Below, one piece after another: positions 32,630 to 53,973 of a stretch of DNA of 64,000 nucleotides. Origin of the DNA: Mesorhizobium neociceri. GTDB lineage: Bacteria; Pseudomonadota; Alphaproteobacteria; Rhizobiales; Rhizobiaceae. The notes beneath the pieces were generated by a model. The model made no database searches and had not been told where the DNA came from. It saw nothing but the letters and a program-made list of their open reading frames with translations. Numbering within the stretch: the first letter of the stretch is position 1; each line of letters begins with the position of its first letter. Both the position numbers and the translations under genes were made by a program. The stretch covers positions 1 through 64,000 of the forward strand of contig NZ_JACDTY010000013.1 of NCBI RefSeq assembly GCF_013520985.1, given 5' to 3'.

Positions 32630-32730
32630 GCTGCATTCTCCCCGAGTCGGAGCGGAATGATTCCATAAGAGCCAGCTAATGACCAGTCGGTCGATCCCTG
32701 TCGAAGGCTGCGTGTTGCGATCCGCTGCGA

Positions 32731-32759
32731 TTGCCGGATGAGGGCGGTTATGCTATGAT
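32731..32759 (+). promoter_or_regulatory. Sigma-70-type promoter of small RNA copy 1
   Basis: TTGCCG (32731-32736), a 17-base spacer and TATGAT (32754-32759). The same box order, spacing and part of the spacer (GATGAGGGC) recur in copy 2, which supports a real promoter. Confidence 0.65.
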
Positions 32760-32765
32760 TTGACC

Positions 32766-32815
32766 ATGGTGCTGATTTGCGCCAGCGACCCGCCGCAAGG
32801 CGGGTTTTTCGTTTC
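32766..32815 (+). ncRNA. Small RNA candidate, copy 1 (two-hairpin RNA)
   Basis: The predicted transcript begins about seven bases after the -10 box. It has a 5-bp stem (GGUGCUGAUUUGCGCC), a short linker, and a terminator hairpin (CCCGCC...GGCGGG) ending in UUUUU. Copy 2 at 33721 has the same 5' hairpin base for base and a varied linker. A 21-codon frame (ATGGTGCTG...) exists in it, but the two copies differ downstream in ways that do not preserve the peptide, so an RNA role is more likely. Confidence 0.6.
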
Positions 32816-32851
32816 CGGCGATATCCCGTAGCCAGTTGAAGGTCATCGCGC

Positions 32852-33046
32852 TCAGGCCAGCGAATCCCCCGCTGGCGGCCTGGCGGGCAGGCCGAGCCTT
32901 GTCCGCTCGCCATCGGCAAAATCCTCGGCCGCTGCCTGGGCCTCGAACAGTTGTTGGGTCACCGTGCCATTCTCGGCAACCAGCACCGCCCATTGGCGGC
33001 GGCCAACGCGTTCGACACGAACGTCATCGGGCTCTCCGGCCACCAT
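32852..33046 (-). CDS. Small hypothetical protein
   Basis: A 64-residue protein starting MVAGEPDDVRVERVGRRQWA. The core RRQWAVLVAENGTVTQQLFE, followed by AAEDFADGERTRLGL, looks like a small beta-alpha unit (a DUF2188-like pattern) common in rhizobia. No function is known. The start at 33046 is preferred to the longer basic upstream reading. It lies between mucR and small RNA copy 1. Confidence 0.55.
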   Translation of the reverse strand: MVAGEPDDVRVERVGRRQWAVLVAENGTVTQQLFEAQAAAEDFADGERTRLGLPARPPAGDSLA

Positions 33047-33087
33047 GATCGTGCTCCGGCAGGCGAACGGCGCAGAGGGGCGTCGCG

Positions 33088-33528
33088 TTACGCCTTGGTC
33101 TTGCGCTTGGCCGCGGCTTTGGCGGCCGGCGCCTCTGTTCTGATGCCGAGCCCGAACTCCTTTGCCAGCTCGGATCGCTTGGCGGCGTAGCTGGGCGCCG
33201 TCATCGGATAGTCGCCGGGCAGGTCCCATTTGGTGCGATAGGCCTCCGGCGTCATGCCATGGGCGGAGCCGAGATGGCGCCGCAGCGACCTGAACTTTTT
33301 GCCATCCTCGAGGCAGAAGATGAAGTTCGGCGTCACCGAGCGCTTGCGGCTGACGGCGGGCTCGGGTGCCGGTTGCGGGGGAGCAACCGGATTGTCCACG
33401 GCCGCCAGGGCGGAATTGACGCTCTCGATCAACGCCGGCAGACTTTCAGGAGGCACTGAATTGTTGCGCACGAAGGCCGCGACGATGTCGGCGGTCAAAT
33501 TTATATTTCGGATTTTGTCGTCAGACAT
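33088..33528 (-). CDS. MucR/Ros family transcriptional regulator
   Basis: A 146-residue protein from ATG 33528 (MSDDKIRNINLTADIVAAFV). The MucR/Ros domain has FCLEDGKKFRSLRRHLGSAH-GMTPEAYRTKWDLPGDYPMT and ends PSYAAKRSELAKEFGLG. The Ros zinc site is C-x2-C...H...H; here the second Cys is Asp (CLED), a change already described for several Mesorhizobium Ros/MucR homologues that use other metal ligands or none. The protein binds AT-rich DNA and controls exopolysaccharide, motility and cell-cycle genes in relatives. A small RNA unit lies on each side. Confidence 0.9.
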   Translation of the reverse strand: MSDDKIRNINLTADIVAAFVRNNSVPPESLPALIESVNSALAAVDNPVAPPQPAPEPAVSRKRSVTPNFIFCLEDGKKFRSLRRHLGSAHGMTPEAYRTKWDLPGDYPMTAPSYAAKRSELAKEFGLGIRTEAPAAKAAAKRKTKA

Positions 33529-33686
33529 GGTTTCTGTTACCCCCTTGATGCCAAAGAACAAATTATCAGACAAAACCCGCCGGCGGCATGGCACTTTAGA
33601 ACATATGCATATGACTTGACGCCGAGTATGGTAGCGCTAACATCGCTGAGTCTCTGGCTGATGTAGGAATTGTTTCTTATTTCCTG

Positions 33687-33715
33687 TTGACGGATGAGGG
33701 CAACTATCGTATTAT
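33687..33715 (+). promoter_or_regulatory. Sigma-70-type promoter of small RNA copy 2
   Basis: TTGACG (33687-33692), a 17-base spacer and TATTAT (33710-33715), close to the ideal rhizobial housekeeping promoter. It is the counterpart of the boxes at 32731-32759. Confidence 0.7.
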
Positions 33716-33720
33716 TTCTC

Positions 33721-33772
33721 CATGGTGCTGATTTGCGCCAACAACCCGCCGCCGAGGCGGGTTTTGTTTTTC
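33721..33772 (+). ncRNA. Small RNA candidate, copy 2 (two-hairpin RNA)
   Basis: It begins CAUGGUGCUGAUUUGCGCC, identical to copy 1 in the first hairpin. A linker AACAA follows, then a CCCGCC...GGCGGG terminator with a U-rich end (UUUUGUUUUU). Predicted length is about 50 nucleotides. The retained parts are the promoter, the first hairpin and the terminator, as expected of a duplicated trans-acting RNA. Confidence 0.65.
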
Positions 33773-33816
33773 TGACTGCCCGCAAGGTGCCGATATCGAA
33801 TGTTGGCGGGACAGCG

Positions 33817-33975
33817 CCCCCCTCTGTCCTGCCGGACATCTCCCCCACACGGGGGGAGATCGGATGTCACGACGGCTTTCGCCAATCATCAAACACCGGA
33901 AGGCGGGGCGCGGCCGTGATGCCGCCAATCTCCCCCCAAGTGGGGGAGATGTCCGGTAGGACAGAGGGGGGCGTG
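33817..33975. repeat. Family A palindromic repeat, inverted pair
   Basis: Two family A copies (33817-33865 and 33926-33975) with their hairpins facing inward. They occupy most of the gap between small RNA copy 2 and the first prophage-side gene. The family is described at 7864-8055. Confidence 0.85.
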
Positions 33976-34035: not shown

Positions 34036-34440
34036 ATGTCCAACCGCTATGCCACCATCATCACCGACGATGACGGCCGCGAGCTCGTCAGCGCCATCGG
34101 CGTGTTCGAAGGCGCTACCCCGCAGGCGCGTATCGGCCGCATCGAGTCGGTCGTGCCAGGCGTGCTGATCGGCATGATCCGCGGCGGTCCCGTCGATGCG
34201 ATCGGCGGCTTCGGATTTCCGCGCGGTGCGCCCGACGGCCGGGCGATCGGTCTTGCCAGGGCAAGGCTGAAAGCCGCGCCTGCCGAAAAGGGCTACGCGC
34301 CGGCCGATGCCGCTGCCAGCAAGGCCACGCAAAAACGATCAAGAGCAAAGCCGGCCCGACGCAAGGCCGGCAAGATCAAGCGGGCAAGGCCGGTGAAGCA
34401 GCCCACGGCAGAGCCTGCCGGGATCCCGGATCATGGCTGA
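34036..34440 (+). CDS. Hypothetical protein at the prophage left edge
   Basis: A 134-residue protein from ATG 34036 (MSNRYATIITDDDGRELVSA). A small N-terminal beta-rich domain (IGRIESVVPGVLIGMIRGGP, IGGFGFPRGAPDG) is followed by a strongly basic tail (KRSRAKPARRKAGKIKRARP), which suggests nucleic-acid contact. Its stop overlaps the start of the next phage gene by 8 bases, so it is probably the first gene of the packaging operon. No family recognised. Confidence 0.55.
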   Translation: MSNRYATIITDDDGRELVSAIGVFEGATPQARIGRIESVVPGVLIGMIRGGPVDAIGGFGFPRGAPDGRAIGLARARLKAAPAEKGYAPADAAASKATQKRSRAKPARRKAGKIKRARPVKQPTAEPAGIPDHG

Positions 34441-34822
34441 CCGGACGGCGCCGCGTGCGCGCCCTAGCCGCAAAGCGCCCGCCGGCGCCCCTGCCACAAC
34501 GAAGTGGACGAAGAAGACGCTTGGCGATGATTTTCTCGACGCGGTGCGCGCCGATTTCCGCGCCCATGGCGCCGGTGTCATTGCCACGGTCCGGGCCGAC
34601 AAGCCCGATCAGTATCTGAAGATCGTGCAATCGGTGCTGCCCAAGGATCTGGCCAAGGACCTGCATGTCTCCACCGACAATCTGGAAGTCTTGAGTGATG
34701 ACGAAATCCGCCGCCGTATCCGCGGCCTCGAAGCCGTCCTCGGGCCGTTCGGCGACAAGCCGATCGGCGCGGCGCCACTATCTGGCGCTGCTGCAGGAGC
34801 TGGACCGCAGGCGCAGGAGTAA
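34433..34822 (+). CDS. Putative phage terminase small subunit
   Basis: A 129-residue protein. After a basic, Pro/Ala-rich N-terminus it has the helical core TLGDDFLDAVRADFRAHGAG and ATVRADKPDQYLKIVQSVLP, a pattern found in small proteins directly upstream of terminase large subunits in proteobacterial podophages. It would bind packaging sites and present DNA to the motor. It overlaps the large-subunit frame by 128 bases. Assigned from position and core pattern only. Confidence 0.6.
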   Translation: MADRTAPRARPSRKAPAGAPATTKWTKKTLGDDFLDAVRADFRAHGAGVIATVRADKPDQYLKIVQSVLPKDLAKDLHVSTDNLEVLSDDEIRRRIRGLEAVLGPFGDKPIGAAPLSGAAAGAGPQAQE

Positions 34823-35456
34823 CCAGCTCGCCGCCTACCGGCCTTATCCCAGACAGGCTGAATTCCACGCGGCGGGAGCGTTGAACCGCGAGCGGCTGTT
34901 CATGGCCGGCAACCAGCTCGGCAAGACCAGGGCCGGCGGCGCCGAATGGGCCATGCATCTCACCGGCCGCTATCCCTGGTGGTGGCAAGGCAAGACCTTC
35001 GACAGCGCCGTGCGGCTATGGGCGACCGGGGTGACCGGCGAGGGCACGCGCGACAATCCGCAGCGCGTGCTGGTCGGCCCGCCGCAGCAGCAGGCCGCCT
35101 GGGGCACCGGCATGATCCCGGCCGACGCCATTTTGCACACCACCATGGGCCGCGGCGCGCCGGGTGCGCTCGACAGCGTCGTGGTGCGCTGGGGCGGCGG
35201 CGGCGACGTGCAGGCCGATGAATCCGTGCTGTCGTTCAAGAGCTATGAGAAGGGCCGCGAAAAGTGGCAGGGCGAAACCCTGCACGGCGTCTGGTTCGAC
35301 GAAGAGCCGCCGCTGGATATCTATTCCGAAGGCCTGACCCGCACCAACGCCACGGGCGGCATCACGATCGTGACGTTCACGCCGCTGCTCGGAATGTCGG
35401 ATGTGGTGCTGCGGTTTTTGTCGGCGCAGGAGGTGGAGGGCAGGGCGGGGGGTTGA
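34695..35456 (+). CDS. Terminase large subunit, N-terminal ATPase half (gene split)
   Basis: A 253-residue product with the packaging ATPase: LAAYRPYPRQAEFHAAGALN (adenine-binding region), Walker A FMAGNQLGKTRAG (about residues 70-82), WAMHLTGRYPWWW, DNPQRVLVGPP and Walker B GVWFDEEPP, then ITIVTFTPLLGMSDVVLRFL. The family continues directly into a ...RHVTxMTIDDAEHY nuclease half, but here the frame ends in a divergent tail (SAQEVEGRAGG) and a stop at 35456. The nuclease half resumes at 35999 after an inserted segment. Start ATG 34695 or 34698. Confidence 0.85.
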   Translation: MMTKSAAVSAASKPSSGRSATSRSARRHYLALLQELDRRRRSNQLAAYRPYPRQAEFHAAGALNRERLFMAGNQLGKTRAGGAEWAMHLTGRYPWWWQGKTFDSAVRLWATGVTGEGTRDNPQRVLVGPPQQQAAWGTGMIPADAILHTTMGRGAPGALDSVVVRWGGGGDVQADESVLSFKSYEKGREKWQGETLHGVWFDEEPPLDIYSEGLTRTNATGGITIVTFTPLLGMSDVVLRFLSAQEVEGRAGG

Positions 35457-35515
35457 AGTAGAGCCGCCCGCAAGGGAGGACGCCGGTGCTGCCGCAGCGA
35501 CGCTCGGCATCTAAC

Positions 35516-35848
35516 TCAATGCGGAAGAAGTAGAGAGACCTTTACGCGAGGTGCAAAGAAGCAACGCAAATACAGCTGATTGGTTATGACGTAGGTACTT
35601 TCGCAGATATGGAATTGGCCGTCTGGGGAGTCCTGCACACGGTCCGGTGGGATGATGAAATTATGCGGCAAATAGATGTAACCACCGTCGATCCTGGACA
35701 GCACCGAAGACTGAGGTATGGCGCGGCAATCAGTGCCGCCGCAACACTTGAATTTCGTCTGTGGGTCAATCCTGTCTTCGTACCAATCGTGGGCGCTGGC
35801 GGCCGTCGCGGCGGCGATACACATCGCCGTGAAGATGAATCTTCGCAT
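35516..35848 (-). CDS. Small secreted protein inserted between the terminase halves
   Basis: About 110 residues with a signal peptide (MRRFIFTAMCIAAATAASAHDW). The mature part has WYEDRIDPQTKFKCCGGTDC and RVQDSPDGQFHICE, with four to five Cys. Proteins with this CCGGTDC pattern recur in rhizobial genomes and prophages without a known role. It is on the strand opposite to the packaging genes, as expected of an inserted cargo gene. An ATG at 35860 is also possible. Confidence 0.65.
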   Translation of the reverse strand: MRRFIFTAMCIAAATAASAHDWYEDRIDPQTKFKCCGGTDCRAIPQSSVLSRIDGGYIYLPHNFIIPPDRVQDSPDGQFHICESTYVITNQLYLRCFFAPRVKVSLLLPH

Positions 35849-35998
35849 GGCATTCCTCAAGCATCTGGCAGGCGCTGCTCGTTGGAACGTCTACGTATAT
35901 TAGCGTCCCGTTGAGAATACCATTGGCCGCCGACTGACGGACGCAGCTCCGGCAAGATTGGTTTGACCCTTCCTGGCCATCAATGACCGAGGTGAGGC

Positions 35999-36754
35999 AT
36001 GTCCCGTCACGTCACCTTCATGACCATCGACGATGCCGAGCACTATTCGCCAGACGAGCGCGCCGCGATCATTGCCGCTTATCCCGAGCATGAGCGCGAG
36101 GCCAGGGCCAAGGGCATTCCGGTTCTCGGCTCCGGCCGCATCTTTCCGATTTCCGAACAGCTGATCGCCTGCGAGCCGTTCCGGCTGCCGCGCTACTGGC
36201 CGCGCCTAGGCGCGCTCGATTTTGGTTGGGACCACCCCTCGGCCGCGGTCGAACTCGCCTGGGACACGGAGGCCGATGTCGTCTACGTCACCAAGGCTGC
36301 CCGCGCCTCGCAGCAGACACCGGCCATGCAGGTGCTGGCGCTGAAGCCGTGGGGCGAGTGGCTGCCCTGGGCCTGGCCGCGCGACGGCCGCCGCGAAACG
36401 CTGGAAGGGGCGGGCACCGCGCTCGCCAGACAATACACCGCGCACGGGCTGAACATGCTGTCGGGCCACGCCCGCTTTGCCGACGGCTCGGTCTCGGTCG
36501 AGGCCGGCCTGATGGAGATGCTCGACCGCATGGAGTCCGGCCGCTTCAAGGTGTTCTCGACGCTGCTGCCCTGGTTCGAGGAATTCCGCCTCTACCACCG
36601 CAAGGACGGCCAGGTTGTAAAGCTGCGGGACGATCTGATGGCCGCGACGCGTTATGGCGTGATGATGCTGAGGGAAGCGTTGGTCGATCCGGCGGAGTTC
36701 AAGGCGGCGCGACGGCCGGTGGGGCAGAGCGATCCGCTGGGGGCGTTTCGATAG
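35999..36754 (+). CDS. Terminase large subunit, C-terminal nuclease half (gene split)
   Basis: A 251-residue product starting MSRHVTFMTIDDAEHYSPDE. It has the RNase H-like nuclease: IPVLGSGRIFPISEQLI, LGALDFGWDHPSAAVEL (first Asp), then SVEAGLMEMLDRMESGRFKV and KLRDDLMAATRYGVMMLREA (distal acidic residues). This is normally the second half of one large-subunit protein. A ribosome site (GAGGTGAGGC) stands just before ATG 35999, with a stop codon two codons upstream, so the half could be made as a separate polypeptide. Confidence 0.85.
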   Translation: MSRHVTFMTIDDAEHYSPDERAAIIAAYPEHEREARAKGIPVLGSGRIFPISEQLIACEPFRLPRYWPRLGALDFGWDHPSAAVELAWDTEADVVYVTKAARASQQTPAMQVLALKPWGEWLPWAWPRDGRRETLEGAGTALARQYTAHGLNMLSGHARFADGSVSVEAGLMEMLDRMESGRFKVFSTLLPWFEEFRLYHRKDGQVVKLRDDLMAATRYGVMMLREALVDPAEFKAARRPVGQSDPLGAFR

Positions 36755-41093: not shown

Positions 41094-41274
41094 GATCTCC
41101 CCCCTCGTGGGGGAGATGCCCGGCAGGGCAGAGGGGGGCGCTGTCCCTCCGACCCGTCGAGCAACTCCTGGGCGTCACCCTCTGCTGGCTCTCTGCCATC
41201 AATCTGAAACGCCGGCGATCCTTCGCGCCCCCCTCTGTCCTGCCGGACATCTCCCCCACGAGGGGGGAGATTGG
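41094..41274. repeat. Family A palindromic repeat, inverted pair
   Basis: Family A copies at 41094-41143 and 41227-41274 with tails facing inward, just before the portal gene. Confidence 0.85.
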
Positions 41275-41310
41275 CAGCTCCCGCATCCGCGCCAAACAAG
41301 TGAGCCCCTC

Positions 41311-43086
41311 ATGACCGATTCCCGCGCCCGCGATATCCTGTCCCGCCAGTCCGAGCTCGAAACCGAGCGCTGCCAATATGAGGCGGTGTGGGAGCAGGTG
41401 GCGGAATTCTGCGATCCCGATGCGCCCGACGTCTGGAGCGGCCCCAGGACCGGCGGGCCGGACTCGCAGGCCGAGCGGCAGGAGCGGCGCGGTTCTCGCG
41501 TCTACGCCAACACCATCAACTCGGCCGCCAACCGGCTGGCCGCCGGGCTGGAAAGCCTGATCATTCCGCAGTCGGAAAAATGGCACGGGCTGACCACCGC
41601 CGAAATGAACGACGAGGAGACCGACGAGGAAAAGGAATGGGCGGAGGGCTTGCGCGATTTCCTGTTTGCTCTGCGCTATTCCGCCAACTCCAACTTCGTG
41701 CCGGCAACGCAGGCCTGCCTGCGCAATGTCGTGCGCTATGGTCCCGCCTATCTTTATGCCGAGGAAGGCTTTGGCGGCACACTGATCCGCTATGCCTCGA
41801 TCCCCGTCGTCGAGGGTTATCTTGCCCGCAACCGCTGGGGCCAGGTCGATATTTTCCACCGCCGCTATGAGCGCACGGCAAGGCAGGCGGCGCAGCTGCT
41901 GGGCTACGACAAACTGCCGGCGCGGATCAAAATGCTGGTCGACGATCCCGCCAAATGCGAGACCAAGATCTCGCTGATCCAGTGCATCCAGCCGCGCGAC
42001 GAGCGCAAGATGTACCGACTGTCGGGCGCCTACCAGTATCTCGATACGGCATTCGCTTCCTATCACGTCATCGAGGACGAGGAAGAGATCGTCAGGGAAA
42101 GCGGCTTTCGTTCCTTCCCGGTGTCGACCTTCAACTGGCGCCGCTACGAGGGCGATCCCTATGGCATCTCGCCGACCATCGAGGCGCTGACCACGGTGCG
42201 CGAGGAAAACGCCGTGCGCCGCTCCGGCCTGCGCGCGCTGCAGCAGATCACCGATCCGGCCACGGCGTCGAAGGCCAGGCTGGACTATGTGCCGGTGCTC
42301 AACCCCGGCGAGAATTATCCGGGCCTGATCGACGACAATGGAAGGCCGCTGATCCAGCCGATCGCGACCGGACAGAACCCGACCTATGCCTTCAATTATG
42401 CGGCCAGCCGGGCGGAGGAAATCCGCGACATGATGTTCGTCAACCTGTTCCAGACGCTGGTGCAGAACCCGCAGATGACGGCGACCGAAGCCTTGATCCG
42501 CCAGGAGGAAAAGGGCGCGCTGCTCGGCCCCTCGGGCTCGATCATCCAGGCGGGTTTTGCCAGCAATCTCGACCGCGAGCTCGGCATTCTCGAGGACAAG
42601 GGCCTCTATGACGAGGACAGCCGCTTCGCGCCGCCGGAAAGCCTCGCCGGCAAGGCGGTGCGGCCGACCTTCACCGGCCCGCTCGATGTGCTCAGGCGTT
42701 CGGCCGAAGCGCGCGACACCATCCAGGTGGTGACGACGGCCATGCAGATGGCGCAGTTCGATCCCGGCATCATGGACAATATCGATGGCGACGAAGCGCT
42801 GAAGATCGTGCAAAGCGCCGGCCGCAGCCCGCAGCGCATCTTTCGCCGCAAGGAGGAGGTGGACGGTCTGCGCGATGCGAGAGCCAAGGCGCAGACCGCG
42901 CAGGCCGGCATGGCGGCGATCGCCTCCGCCGGCAAGGTCGCCAAGGATGCCGTGCCGGCGGCAGTGCAGGCACGCGACAGCGGCCTGCTCGACGGTCTGC
43001 AGGGACTGCTCGGCGGACAGGCGCCGGCTGGTGAAGCAGGCGGGCAAGCGACGGCCGTGCCGGCCGCGCCGGGGCAGGGCGCATGA
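41311..43086 (+). CDS. Phage portal (head-tail connector) protein, T7 gp8-like
   Basis: A 591-residue protein, normal for podovirus connectors. Family features: RARDILSRQSELETERCQYE at the N-terminus, RVYANTINSAANRLAAGLES-LIIPQSEKWHGL, FVPATQACLRNVVRYGPAYL, the crown region (FPVSTFNWRRYEGDPYGISP, GLRALQQITDPA) and MTATEALIRQEEKGALLGPS. The last ~60 residues are Ala/Gly/Gln-rich. It forms the dodecameric ring for DNA entry and exit. Its stop overlaps the next gene. Confidence 0.9.
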   Translation: MTDSRARDILSRQSELETERCQYEAVWEQVAEFCDPDAPDVWSGPRTGGPDSQAERQERRGSRVYANTINSAANRLAAGLESLIIPQSEKWHGLTTAEMNDEETDEEKEWAEGLRDFLFALRYSANSNFVPATQACLRNVVRYGPAYLYAEEGFGGTLIRYASIPVVEGYLARNRWGQVDIFHRRYERTARQAAQLLGYDKLPARIKMLVDDPAKCETKISLIQCIQPRDERKMYRLSGAYQYLDTAFASYHVIEDEEEIVRESGFRSFPVSTFNWRRYEGDPYGISPTIEALTTVREENAVRRSGLRALQQITDPATASKARLDYVPVLNPGENYPGLIDDNGRPLIQPIATGQNPTYAFNYAASRAEEIRDMMFVNLFQTLVQNPQMTATEALIRQEEKGALLGPSGSIIQAGFASNLDRELGILEDKGLYDEDSRFAPPESLAGKAVRPTFTGPLDVLRRSAEARDTIQVVTTAMQMAQFDPGIMDNIDGDEALKIVQSAGRSPQRIFRRKEEVDGLRDARAKAQTAQAGMAAIASAGKVAKDAVPAAVQARDSGLLDGLQGLLGGQAPAGEAGGQATAVPAAPGQGA

Positions 43087-49631: not shown

Positions 49632-50621
49632 ATGGCAGACGCCTATACCCGCATCGCGGACGCGATCGTTCCGTCCGTTTATGCCCAGTACTCGTTCGAG
49701 GAGCATGTCCAGTCGCTGGAAATCTTCCAGGCCGGCATCCTGTTCAACGATCCGGCCATCACCGCCAAGCTGTCGATGGGCGGCCGCTCCGTCGACATGC
49801 CCGGCTGGAAGGATCTCGGCAACGATCCGTCCGAACCGGTCAATGACGATCCGGCCGATTCCATCGAGATGAAGAAGATCGGCGCCCGCCGCGAGGTCGC
49901 CGCCCGCAATGTCCGCGCCCAGGCCTGGGGCGTTCCGGACCTGACCTCGATCCTGGCCGGCGACGATCCGCAGAAGCTGATCGTCAAGCGCCAGACCGAG
50001 TACTGGCAGCGCGCCAACAAGCTGACCTTGCTCGGCATCCTCAAGGGGGTCGTGGCCGACAACATCGCCAATGATGCCGGCGACCTGGTGCGCGTCACCG
50101 GCGCTTCCATCGTCGACACCGACATCATCGAAGCCGCCTATCTGATGGGCGACCGTGCCGACAAATTCAAGACGATCTGGATGCATTCGAAACAGATGAA
50201 GGCGCTGAAGCTCGCCGACCTCATCGACTATGTACCGTCGTCCGAGCAGGGCGGTCCGCTCATCCCCTATTACATGGGGCTGCGCTGCGTGGTCGATGAC
50301 GACATTCCGGTGGCTGCCGGCGTCTACACCGCCTTCATGTTCAAGGACAAGGCGATCCTGTGGAACGAGCTGCCGGTCAACACCGAAGGCGGGCCGCTGG
50401 AGTTCGACCGCAAGCCGCGCCAAGGCCATGGCGGCGGCGTTACCGAAATGGTCGGCCGCCGGCATTTCGTGCCGCACGTGCCCGGCACCCGCTTCCTCGA
50501 TGCGTCCTCGGCCGGCGAATTCGCCACCGACGCCGAACTGGCGCTCGCGGCGAACTGGGACCGCACGGCGTCCAGCGTCAAGAACATGACGTTCATCGCG
50601 CTGAAGACGAGCGAGGCCTGA
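49632..50621 (+). CDS. Major capsid protein
   Basis: A 329-residue protein. DAIVPSVYAQYSFEEHVQSL-EIFQAGILFNDP starts the N-arm, then VDMPGWKDLGNDPSEPVND and KKIGARREVAARNVRAQAWG (E-loop and spine helix), ASIVDTDIIEAAYLMGDRAD-KFKTIWMHSKQMKALK and the C-terminal RRHFVPHVPGTRFLDAS. The pattern is that of HK97-fold capsid proteins of the N4-gp56/coat family seen in podophages. A good GGAAGTG ribosome site precedes ATG 49632. Confidence 0.85.
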   Translation: MADAYTRIADAIVPSVYAQYSFEEHVQSLEIFQAGILFNDPAITAKLSMGGRSVDMPGWKDLGNDPSEPVNDDPADSIEMKKIGARREVAARNVRAQAWGVPDLTSILAGDDPQKLIVKRQTEYWQRANKLTLLGILKGVVADNIANDAGDLVRVTGASIVDTDIIEAAYLMGDRADKFKTIWMHSKQMKALKLADLIDYVPSSEQGGPLIPYYMGLRCVVDDDIPVAAGVYTAFMFKDKAILWNELPVNTEGGPLEFDRKPRQGHGGGVTEMVGRRHFVPHVPGTRFLDASSAGEFATDAELALAANWDRTASSVKNMTFIALKTSEA

Positions 50622-50908: not shown

Positions 50909-51511
50909 ATGGCCGTCACCCCGCTCGACATCGCCAACATGGCGCTCGCCGTCCTCGACGAGGCGCCGATCGACAGTCTCGATCAGGACGTCAAGGCGGC
51001 GCGTCTCTTGAACCTGCATTTCGACCTGACGCGGGAAGCGGAACTCATCAGGCACGCCTGGGTGTTCGCGATCCTCGCCGCCAGCGTCGCAGGCGCCGAC
51101 ACCGGCAGCGGCGATTGCACTTTGAATTTCGCCTATGAACTGCCCGCCGATTGTCTGCGTCCGCTGCCGCAGACGGCAAATGGCGAGCCGGACGGCGTGC
51201 CGGTCTCCTGGCGCCAGGAAGCCGGACTGATCTATTGCGACCAGTCCGGGCCGCTGATCATCCGCTACATCGCCAATCTCACCGACCCCAATGACTGGGA
51301 CGCCCTGTTCACCGAAGTGTTGGTGGCAGCCCTCGCCATCAAGATCGCGCATCCCTTGACCCACAAGGCCGGCATGATCGACATCGCCCGTTCGGCCTAT
51401 GACCGCGCGCTCGACGCCGCCTTTGCCGCCAACGCCGTCCAGCGCGGCGGCCGGCTTTACACCGACTCATGGGCGCAGCAGCGCGGCGACTTCAGGGTGT
51501 TTGGCCGATGA
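50909..51511 (+). CDS. Tail tubular protein A (T7 gp11-like)
   Basis: A 200-residue protein. TPLDIANMALAVLDEAPIDS-LDQDVKAARLLNLHFDLTRE, then HAWVFAILAASV and YELPADCLRPLPQ are the usual gatekeeper (adaptor) segments; SGPLIIRYIANLTDPNDWDA-LFTEVLVAALAIKIAHPLT and the C-terminal DSWAQQRGDFRVFGR complete the family pattern. It forms the ring between portal and nozzle. ATGA overlap with the next gene. Confidence 0.87.
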   Translation: MAVTPLDIANMALAVLDEAPIDSLDQDVKAARLLNLHFDLTREAELIRHAWVFAILAASVAGADTGSGDCTLNFAYELPADCLRPLPQTANGEPDGVPVSWRQEAGLIYCDQSGPLIIRYIANLTDPNDWDALFTEVLVAALAIKIAHPLTHKAGMIDIARSAYDRALDAAFAANAVQRGGRLYTDSWAQQRGDFRVFGR

Positions 51512-53973
51512 CCGCGCTTTACCCGATCCAGGACGTTTTTACGCGTGGCGAGATTTCGCCCAGGCTGCACGCGCGCGCTTCGCTCGATTTCTATCGCGCC
51601 GCGTTGGCGAAATGCGAGAACTTCGTCACGCTGCCGCATGGCGGCATCCGCGCCCGCGGCGGCAGCTATTTCGTCAACGAGGTGAAGAACTCGGCCAGGA
51701 AGACGCGCGCCATCCCCTTCATCTTTTCCTCCGAACAGGCCTACTGCCTCGAATTCGGCGACCTCTACATCCGCGTTTATGCCTATGGCGCACGCGTCGG
51801 GACCGTCGAGGTGGCCTCGCCCTATCTCGAAGCCGATCTGTTCGACCTCGCCTATGTGCAGTCGGCCGACCAGATGTGGATCACGCACAGGAACTATCCG
51901 CCCAAGGTGCTGACGCGCACCGCGCACACGGCATGGGCGCTGACCGACTTCGAATTCCTCGACGGCCCTTATGACGACATCAATACAACCAGCACCACGC
52001 TGACGCCGTCCGATACCGGCCATCTCACGCCCGACATGACCAGCAACACCACGCCCAGCGGTACCGCTTCGGATGGTGGCGGCAGCGCCAATGCCTGGGC
52101 GATATTCGACCGCGACAAGACCCAGAATATCCTGATCTCCGGCGGCGGCGACGGCTATGTCCGCTTTCGCAACGCCGGCGGCGCCCAGCGTGTGGTCGAC
52201 GCCTATTGGGTCACGGCCGCCAACCAGGCGACCCGTGCCTTCGACTATGCGACGGCCTGGGAAATCCAGGGCTCGAACGACGGCACCAACTGGGTGACGC
52301 TCGACACCAGGACCGGCGAAGCCGGCTGGGGCAACGGCGAAACCCGCTACTACGAGTTCACCAACGCAAACGCCTACGAATACCACCAGTTCGTCTTTTC
52401 CGGCGGCGGCGGCGACGATGCCAACAACACCTATCTCGCCGAGATCGCCTTCCACATTGCCGCTACTGACCAGATTCCCTTCGATCTCACCGCGTCCTCG
52501 GCCGTTGGCATCAATGGCGGCGCCGGCTTTCAGACCACCGATGTCGGCCGCGCCGTGCGCCTGCTCGGCGCCGATGGTCTGTGGCGCTGGGCCAAGATCA
52601 CCAGCCGCACCAGCACGACCGTGGTCAAGATCATCCTCTACGGCCATGCGCTGCCCAACACCAATCCGGTCACGCGCTGGCGGCTCGGCACTTTCGTGCC
52701 TGGCAAATATGTCGAGGCGGGCTCGCTCTATGAGGAGCGATTGGCCTTCAGCCGGCGCTTCTCGGTCTATGCATCGGCGACCGGCGACTTCGACAATTTC
52801 GCGCTCGGCGAAAAGGATGACGATGCGCTTGAGTTCATCCAGGCCGGCGGCGGCCAGGCCAACGATATCGTCTGGATCGCCGATTCCGACGGCGCGCTTT
52901 TGATCGGCACCTCAGGCGGTATCCGCGCGCTATCGGGCTCCGGCCTCGACGAGGCGCTGACGCCGTCTTCGTTCAAGAACCGCCGCTCGCGCACCTTCGG
53001 CTGCGCCCGTATCCGCCCGGTCGATGCGGGGCAATCCTTCCTCTATGTCACCCGCTCGCGCAAATCGATCGCCGAACTGACGCAGACCTCGACCAGCAAA
53101 TTCACCTCCGACGACATCGGCCAGATTTCCGAGCACATCCCCAAGCAGGGCGTGGTCGAACTGGCCTTCCAGACCGATCCCGACCCGGTGCTGTGGTTCC
53201 CGCTCGAGAACGGTGAGCTCGGCGGCTACACCCATCAGCCGAGCCAGGAGGTGCGCGGCATGCACCGCCATCGCTTCGGCGGCACCTTCGCTGGTTCGGG
53301 GTGGCCGATCGTCGAGAGTGCGGTGGTGACCCCCGGCCAGAACGGCGTCGACGACATCTGGCTGGTCGTCAAGCGCACCATTGGCGGGGTCACCAGGCGC
53401 TACATCGAAATCATGACCACGCCGTTCGAATATGGCCTGCTGGAGGATGCTTTCCAGGTCGACTGCGGGCTGACCTATTCGGGTGCGGCCGTCAACGTCG
53501 TCTCCGGGCTCGGCCATCTCAACGGCCAGCTGGTCGACGTGCTGGCCGGCGGCACAGTCTATCGCGGCCTGCCCGTCGCTTCCGGCCAGGTAACGCTGCC
53601 CGGCGGCGCCACGGCAGCGAAGTGGCAGGTTGGGCTGCCCTTCCAGTCCGAGGCAAACACGCTGGAGCTCGATGTTGGCGGCCAGGACGGTTCCGTTATC
53701 GGTCGCCGCAAGAAGGTGGCGAAAGTCATCCTGTCGCTGCTCGAGACCGACACGACGGGGTTGCAGGTGCAATCCTTCATCCGCGGCCGCTGGGAGAGCG
53801 TGCGCATGCCAAGCATCGTCGCGCCGGACGGCAAGGCGAAGCTTTACACCGGTAATGTCGATGTGCCGGTCGACGACAGTTGGGAAGGGCAGGGCAGGGT
53901 CAGGATTCGCCACGTCAATCCGACGCCCTGCACGATCCGGGCGTTTACGCCGGTGTTCGATGCCGAGCCGTAG
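51508..53973 (+). CDS. Tail tubular protein B / nozzle (T7 gp12-like) with a discoidin-like insert
   Basis: An 821-residue protein starting MTALYPIQDVFTRGEISPRL. RASLDFYRAALAKCENFVTL-PHGGIRARGGSYFV and RAIPFIFSSEQAYCLEFGDL are the conserved nozzle N-terminus; FVPGKYVEAGSLYEERLAFS-RRFSVYASATGDFDNF and the later GQSFLYVTRSRKSIAEL belong to the body. Residues ~180-330 hold an F5/8-type (discoidin) carbohydrate-binding-like insert (WAIFDRDKTQNILISGGGDG, WEIQGSNDGTNWVTLDTRTG). It forms the tail tip for attachment and ejection; the insert may bind surface sugars. Confidence 0.87.
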   Translation: MTALYPIQDVFTRGEISPRLHARASLDFYRAALAKCENFVTLPHGGIRARGGSYFVNEVKNSARKTRAIPFIFSSEQAYCLEFGDLYIRVYAYGARVGTVEVASPYLEADLFDLAYVQSADQMWITHRNYPPKVLTRTAHTAWALTDFEFLDGPYDDINTTSTTLTPSDTGHLTPDMTSNTTPSGTASDGGGSANAWAIFDRDKTQNILISGGGDGYVRFRNAGGAQRVVDAYWVTAANQATRAFDYATAWEIQGSNDGTNWVTLDTRTGEAGWGNGETRYYEFTNANAYEYHQFVFSGGGGDDANNTYLAEIAFHIAATDQIPFDLTASSAVGINGGAGFQTTDVGRAVRLLGADGLWRWAKITSRTSTTVVKIILYGHALPNTNPVTRWRLGTFVPGKYVEAGSLYEERLAFSRRFSVYASATGDFDNFALGEKDDDALEFIQAGGGQANDIVWIADSDGALLIGTSGGIRALSGSGLDEALTPSSFKNRRSRTFGCARIRPVDAGQSFLYVTRSRKSIAELTQTSTSKFTSDDIGQISEHIPKQGVVELAFQTDPDPVLWFPLENGELGGYTHQPSQEVRGMHRHRFGGTFAGSGWPIVESAVVTPGQNGVDDIWLVVKRTIGGVTRRYIEIMTTPFEYGLLEDAFQVDCGLTYSGAAVNVVSGLGHLNGQLVDVLAGGTVYRGLPVASGQVTLPGGATAAKWQVGLPFQSEANTLELDVGGQDGSVIGRRKKVAKVILSLLETDTTGLQVQSFIRGRWESVRMPSIVAPDGKAKLYTGNVDVPVDDSWEGQGRVRIRHVNPTPCTIRAFTPVFDAEP

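Follow-up and report, generated by a model that had tools for sequence, protein, structure and literature searches.

What is the function of two look-alike promoter-hairpin-terminator units that enclose a mucR-type gene in Mesorhizobium neociceri and lie on the opposite strand, the second of them at the head of a cluster of phage-like genes? The first-pass annotation suggested that they may be sibling trans-acting RNAs and asked whether they accompany mucR. We address this question by comparing the units of the window (the whole analysed stretch of 64,000 nucleotides) with their relatives, considering their neighbours, their conserved parts and a protein family with which they co-occur.

Structure of the units

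The features of the two units and of the gene between them are as follows.

32710..32817, plus strand: unit 1, whole covariance-model match (95.2 bits, E 1.0e-17 for one genome)
32731..32759, plus strand: unit 1, sigma-70-like promoter TTGCCG-17-TATGAT (by sequence)
32767..32784, plus strand: unit 1, 5' hairpin UGGUGC-UGAUUU-GCGCCA at the predicted RNA start (by sequence and folding)
32787..32816, plus strand: unit 1, intrinsic terminator-like hairpin with a T-rich tail (hairpin itself 32787-32806)
33088..33528, minus strand: mucR/ros-type regulator gene between the units (Pfam ROS_MUCR PF05443, E 3.1e-45)
33666..33774, plus strand: unit 2, whole covariance-model match, heading the phage-like late cluster (98.7 bits, E 1.6e-18)
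33687..33715, plus strand: unit 2, sigma-70-like promoter TTGACG-17-TATTAT (spacer contains TGAGGGCA)
33723..33740, plus strand: unit 2, 5' hairpin (by sequence and folding)
33743..33773, plus strand: unit 2, intrinsic terminator-like hairpin with a T-rich tail (hairpin itself 33743-33763)

The coordinates and boxes agree with those given in the first-pass annotation, as does the arrangement, described there as a separation of about 955 bases on the strand opposite to mucR: the distance from unit 1 to unit 2 is 956 bp, with both units on the plus strand and mucR on the minus strand. The 5' hairpin is identical in both, again as annotated (GGTGCTGATTTGCGCC at 32768-32783 and 33724-33739), and a short linker separates it from the terminator-like hairpin, and the predicted terminator follows the promoter closely. 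Folding of the predicted RNAs gives z-scores of -4.1 and -4.6, and in neither case does any of 200 shuffles fold equally well. The 17-base core taken alone is weak evidence within the window, with two matches, a number reached by 9 of 100 shuffles. As far as sequence goes, the units thus look like self-contained sibling short transcription units, as had been suggested. The spacer of unit 1 contains TGAGGGCG, proposed here as a candidate binding element of an antiterminator.

An AT-rich near-palindrome of the AGGAATTTTTTCCT type lies upstream of the -35 box in the window (33665-33684) and in many units, and could be a site of a further regulator. A large inverted repeat of the CCCCTCTGTCCTGCCGGACATCTCCCCC type occupies positions 33815-33970, and repeats like it flank several unit copies in other genomes.

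The window and nine further unit loci yielded no Rfam match at the gathering thresholds, consistent with the earlier statement that no Rfam family could be named. RF00624 (P9) was considered as a candidate, with 29.1 bits for unit 2 (gathering threshold 43), and rejected, because unit 1 scores just 11.2 bits; the similarity of unit 2 to P9 is probably a match of the terminator.

Distribution in Mesorhizobium

The M. neociceri genome has four copies of the unit, two in the window, one on contig C17 and one on contig C25. The pattern GTGCTGATTTGCGCCNNNNACCCGCC, searched with at most two mismatches, is present in 104 of the 119 genomes of the genus, with 1-30 copies in each, and the reversed pattern, used as a control, has no match in the same 119 genomes. 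Within a family sample of 151 genomes three match, two of them from the genus; the third match (G092) has no terminator and was judged to be due to chance.

A covariance model was built from 52 of 76 units, selected by divergence. The set of 76 leaves out two chance matches without a unit (L005 and L133), sequence duplicates and units near locus ends. The model finds units in 53 of 61 genus genomes, with a maximum of 32 per genome. Some copies, e.g. L111 and L153, have no terminator.

Moreover, the hairpin-terminator part of unit 2 matches nine plasmid records, five of them from Mesorhizobium; the other four matches (two Rhizobium, one Shinella, one Methylocystis) span the terminator end only. 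A pattern scan of IMG/VR recovers the exact core in 16 stretches, and unit 2 has no DNA match among the phage GenBank records.

Conserved positions and RNA structure

Relative to the hairpin, the 76 units are conserved from about -55 to about +47, and beyond these limits conservation drops to the background level. In particular, 12 of the 17 columns from -31 to -15, comprising the spacer and the start of the -10 box, are occupied by one base in 78-91% of units, versus mostly 30-50% in columns outside the unit. The first-pass annotation had named a widespread repeat lacking promoter conservation as an outcome that would speak against its reading. By sequence, the element in the -35/-10 spacer is conserved, and the conserved stretch opens within the promoter, about 55 bases ahead of the hairpin.

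The copies within genome G193, where 30 of the 32 model-found units (those with loci) were compared, allow the parts of the unit to be set against each other. A run of 26 consecutive promoter bases, starting five bases before TGCTTTG, is identical in all 30 units; the hairpin and the linker vary, and the flanks have diverged around the constant promoter core. The codons of the possible short peptide change non-synonymously among these copies (by eye), and the hairpin is kept as a structure in G193 and, in part, in phages (with moderate support). The elemental-pause consensus was considered for the start of the hairpin and not adopted, as the G193 copies break it. A -10-like NANNNT follows the start in Mesorhizobium, with A in 76 of 76 units and T in 76 of 76, this T belonging to the search pattern; by eye, it is seen in two of five phage lineages.

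Covariation, suggested earlier as a check, was assessed on 41 sequences. In these, helix 1 retains 88.8% of its pairing, with double-sided changes at three pairs. The whole structure has seven cells with a two-sided change versus a shuffle mean of 1.6 (none of 500 shuffles reaches seven), and its covariation score of 0.120 is likewise reached by none of 500 shuffles. The best slid version of the structure scores 0.095, and slid versions attain eight two-sided cells and five such pairs. Alignment rows L304, L305 and L289 are shifted by roughly one position at the hairpin, and some of their pairs are therefore miscounted. Because slid versions attain these counts and these three phage rows are misaligned, the support from covariation is moderate; the 52 model units alone vary too little to be informative on covariation. 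With this reservation, the two-sided changes in helix 1 and the non-synonymous codon changes in G193 bear out the earlier impression that the RNA structure is kept while the possible peptide changes.

Genes adjacent to the units

The plus-strand genes downstream of unit 2 include the following.

34036..34440, plus strand: first gene of the late cluster, no family match, recurring downstream of units in other genomes (comparison of unit loci)
34433..34822, plus strand: small phage-family protein phrog_8771, just ahead of the terminase (E 1.6e-6)
34695..35456, plus strand: terminase large subunit, N-terminal part (PF03237, E 6.1e-19)
35999..36754, plus strand: terminase large subunit, C-terminal part (family matches)
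41107..43086, plus strand: head-tail connecting protein of podovirus type (PF12236, E 5.5e-68)
49632..50621, plus strand: major head protein (phrog_247, E 3.2e-85)
50909..53973, plus strand: two tail protein genes (phrog_394, phrog_376)

With its terminase, head-tail connector, major head protein and tail proteins, the late cluster is of podovirus type, judged by family matches. At least one of four late proteins of the window (34036, 34433, 34695, 39437) is encoded near 31 of the 76 units, and in all 31 cases the late genes lie downstream and on the same strand. When one locus per genome is taken, 20 of 30 loci have late genes downstream or the two left-hand genes of the window upstream. The reading frame of the terminase large subunit (TerL) is broken in M. 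neociceri, its parts being about 0.54 kb apart within 34695-36754, and a gene for a HipA-like kinase (PF20613, 36936-37760) sits among the late-cluster genes.

The suggested link to mucR did not hold up. A tblastn search with the MucR protein of the window finds it near four of 76 units, at two of 68 loci, many of which reach 1.5 kb to each side (a 3 kb span). Paired units elsewhere enclose a methyltransferase-like gene (L027, L035) or a CrcB-like gene (L029), these names being given by eye. Hence mucR was rejected as a functional partner on the basis of these counts, and it is probably a bystander of the units. The copy on contig C25 (L004 1-1600) points at a gene pair resembling a toxin-antitoxin operon (sequence only, by eye).

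Relatives outside the genus

In a family sample of another size (297 genomes), the covariance model matches three genomes outside Mesorhizobium: G295 (48.7 bits), G131 (44.3 bits) and G274 (28.6 bits), the last being taken as a chance match, as its hairpin region does not fit. In both G295 and G131 the unit starts about 20 bases before the stop codon of a gene for a protein of about 198 aa, and phage-like genes come after it. Compared with the DUF6456 family (PF20057, cut-off 26.3 bits), the two proteins score 23.5 bits (L225, below the cut-off) and 27.1 bits (L226, above it).

A three-protein query of 346 genomes finds the close DUF6456 group outside the genus in G295, G131 and G439 and, truncated, in G292. 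The unit occupies the same place behind the DUF6456 gene in G439 (44.7 bits), and the model finds none at the truncated gene of G292 (L291). All four IMG/VR contigs in which a relative of the DUF6456 protein was found carry the unit at this place as well (44-50 bits). The units of close-group loci all begin about 20 bases before the DUF6456 stop codon. They represent five distinct lineages, because the unit sequences of L304 and L306 equal those of G295 and G131. TerL families are encoded downstream in G295, L307 and G439, the three of the five lineages that were scanned. The phage unit shared by L306 and G131 has no CCCGCC terminator. An order-level search finds the close group in seven of 347 genomes, all of them from Mesorhizobium and none from outside. 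The DUF6456 protein of G295 has no protein match in the phage GenBank records, and that of G131 has none in plasmids.

DUF6456 proteins are also found beyond this close group. All 17 aligned members match PF20057 (E <= 0.01), a family with a match in the Caulobacter vibrioides control genome too. Among 12 distant DUF6456 loci (L291-L302), four contain TGATTTGCGC, which also occurs in the Mesorhizobium hairpin, as an exact copy at 0-54 nt downstream of the stop codon, and it is the sole exact copy in each of these loci of about 3.3 kb; the exact 10-mer is absent from the other eight. Weak model matches (12.8 and 11.3 bits) lie directly behind the distant DUF6456 genes of L293 and L300. Ten DUF6456 loci, including G439 C28 as a single close-group member, were extended downstream by up to 7 kb, and seven encode a TerL family there; the remaining three have a transposase, an uncharacterised family that also matches the terminase of the window, and no ORF of 300 aa, respectively. 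To judge from this gene order, the units outside the genus are leaders of late operons behind a DUF6456 gene.

The DUF6456 factor of Mesorhizobium

M. neociceri has one DUF6456 gene over the cut-off.

C32:21911-22513: sole DUF6456 gene of M. neociceri over the cut-off (199 aa)

Its product scores 32.1 and 32.7 bits against PF20057 (curated cut-off 26.3) and is 52% and 47% identical to two prophage proteins. The gene preceding it (L245 287-1857) has a borderline GcrA match (26.8 bits, cut-off 26.9). There is no unit in the stretch of 13.4 kb examined around the DUF6456 gene, and in Mesorhizobium the factor is unlinked to the units.

The two co-occur nonetheless. The 119 genomes comprise 101 with both the factor and a unit, two with the factor only, three with a unit only and 13 with neither (Fisher p 7e-13, a value that ignores kinship and is inflated, because the absences may cluster in few lineages). 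The genomes with the factor and no pattern match are G172 and G220, and the model finds one unit in G172; a unit without a DUF6456 protein of the close type is seen in G188, G202 and G233. A PF20057 profile check of ten selected genomes found no match in G188, G233, G155, G203 and G204, a weak one in G202, and the family present in G172 and G220. Genomes G235 (170.8 bits) and G265 (28.8 bits) encode PF20057 proteins of another type and have no unit by pattern, so the unit tracks the close DUF6456 group rather than DUF6456 at large.

The structural model of the L304 protein, built from four sequences, has a pLDDT of 62 and a pTM of 0.46. Its residues from about 124 to 191 resemble sigma region 4 (3vfz_A, Z 8.1, rmsd 2.0, 62 aligned), though a Z near 8 can reflect a common helical arrangement. 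The C-terminal part of the model aligns with phage-21 Q (6p1b_B, Z 6.7, rmsd 3.8, 93 aligned). The best Foldseek E-value for the model is 0.5, and a PDB sequence search with the factor gave E-values of 0.41 and 0.94 only, neither of them credible.

Dispersed copies

In the G209 clade the unit is located inside an element of about 235 bp with 23-bp inverted ends, identical at 21 of 23 positions in the consensus. Comparison of 26 of the 32 G209 units shows both ends in 21 of the 26 copies. Eight of these 21 lie between duplications no shorter than 7 bp, versus three of 420 mismatched pairs. At the one locus where empty sites were compared (L255, element at 2490-2726), genomes G206, G244 and G179 align on both sides, with the element missing and 39-47 other bases in its place. 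The element carrying the unit in this clade is a MITE. Ends of this type are absent from the window units and from seven inspected copies of G193 and G166. MITE ends recur at the M. ciceri locus L113.

No clear preference in orientation is seen among the dispersed copies, 16 of 28 in G193 being co-directional with the downstream gene (by rough ORF calls). They do not conform to the rule of late genes downstream on the same strand.

Proposed function and alternative explanations

The units are likely phage-derived late-promoter cassettes of the lambda pR'-tR' or GafZ kind, with a terminated RNA of about 48 nt as the expected default product. The sigma-70 promoter, with its element between -35 and -10 (near-palindromic TGMSKKCA, then TATG), would bind an antiterminator of the DUF6456 family. 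RNA polymerase would start at or next to the hairpin, make the RNA of about 48 nt and normally halt at the CCCGCC/GGCGGG terminator. The DUF6456 factor, when present, would load on the polymerase at the promoter, letting it pass this terminator and later ones, and unit 2 would in this way drive the phage-like late genes from 34036 onward. The factor gene stands directly before the cassette in the phage relatives, and in M. neociceri its role would be taken by the gene located elsewhere (C32:21911-22513). On this reading unit 1 would be a duplicate, as would the copies on C17 and C25, and in one clade the MITE would have multiplied the cassette.

It is rather unlikely that the units are instead a family of trans-acting sRNAs, in which the RNA of about 48 nt with its 5' hairpin would be the product, and the copies siblings differing in linker and promoter strength. 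The self-contained set of promoter, structured RNA and terminator fits such a family, as do dispersed copies facing either way, the hairpin kept as a structure in G193 and partly in phages (with moderate support), and the hairpin letters retained in the pattern-selected Mesorhizobium units, a set biased for these very columns. However, the promoter of the G193 copies is under stronger constraint than their RNA, whose hairpin letters change; the relatives head phage late operons behind DUF6456; and no Rfam family matches. Thus, of the proposal of sibling trans-acting RNAs, the sibling units stand, while a trans-acting RNA as their main role is disfavoured by the most constrained part being the G193 promoter and by the late-operon position of the relatives.

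A second reading, limited to the dispersed copies, regards them as passenger sequence, a repeat (the MITE in one clade) carrying the cassette with no role at its new place. The inverted ends, the duplications at eight of 21 copies, the empty sites at one locus and the random orientation agree with it, but it accounts for the G209 clade alone, while units are found repeatedly beside the cluster (20 of 30 loci, one per genome) and the G193 promoter core is identical in 30 copies despite diverged flanks; we consider it improbable. Regulation of downstream genes by attenuation through a leaderless leader peptide (MVLICA...) is very improbable: 71 of 76 units have an ATG where the RNA is predicted to start, but it is missing there in the other five and in the phage relatives, the G193 codons change non-synonymously, the reading frame beyond the linker shifts with the length of the terminator, and the downstream genes of dispersed copies are oriented at random.

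The late-promoter cassette, as the favoured explanation, leaves room for a further step. The units may form a domesticated phage antitermination switch, in which a stand-alone DUF6456 factor, no longer attached to a phage, would govern read-through at several to about 30 chromosomal cassettes, some of them spread by the MITE. We regard this as unlikely; if true, an antitermination regulon spanning the genome and linked to a conserved cluster for phage-like particles would be the work of a transposable element. More generally, what looks like a "small RNA family" throughout a genus can be what an antitermination switch produces by default. The unit provides a DNA signature of a site where factors of the DUF6456/GafZ type may load, and a single genome offers about 30 naturally varying cassettes for mapping which parts are essential. 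No earlier description of such a loading site in Mesorhizobium was found in listings, abstracts and passages of the literature, including the main text of an M. huakuii sRNA paper (PMC5596092).

Comparison with known antitermination systems

The proposed function would link the regulation of the Caulobacter gene transfer agent (GTA) with late-gene control in temperate Rhizobiales phages. A putative dedicated antiterminator gene adjoins the promoter in five phage lineages, and in Mesorhizobium it is unlinked but co-occurring (5 of 119 genomes discordant). The Q gene is located just upstream of pR'. The protein family of AlpA differs, as far as known, from DUF6456, and AlpA acts in another host (Pseudomonas) on other target genes.

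GafZ is reported to be an antiterminator of the Caulobacter GTA cluster that a near-palindrome located between -10 and -35 recruits, to pass terminators, and to share homology with GafA in the C-terminal part of the latter (PMC11150451). GafY and GafZ are presented as two halves of GafA (PMC9632790), and gafA is listed as DUF6456 (PMC9765227). Elsewhere GafA matches are reported as annotated DUF6456 or HTH, with similarity in Hyphomicrobiales limited to the C-terminal part (PMC9638019). The unit shares with this system, as described there, a near-palindromic element between -35 and -10 and a phage-like late cluster, and a sigma-type HTH is predicted for both GafZ and the DUF6456 factor. The Caulobacter element reads GCGCCCG-CTGGCGC and its terminator follows the first gene, whereas the terminator of the unit lies about 20 nt past the predicted start. 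Moreover, unlike the Caulobacter GTA, the unit has a cluster of podovirus type and occurs in several to about 30 copies per genome.

Phage-21 Q and AlpA are described as acting with the help of a terminator, a pause sequence that resembles a -10 box and an element located between -10 and -35, and 21Q as resembling sigma region 4 (PMC6606751, PMC9371919). As in the pR'/tR' regions of lambda and phage 21 (PMC6606751), the unit has a spacer element, a terminator soon after the promoter and late genes downstream; the element of phage 21, as reported, consists of direct repeats (TGAGCA) and that of Mesorhizobium is a near-palindrome; the likeness proposed is one of anatomy. AlpA likewise acts through an element between -10 and -35 with an intrinsic terminator right after the promoter, and has a C-terminal HTH (PMC9371919), a feature predicted for the DUF6456 factor too. 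From the spacer element, the terminator, the late genes and the likeness of the DUF6456 factor, the unit therefore appears, by its anatomy, as a module of the Q/GafZ kind.
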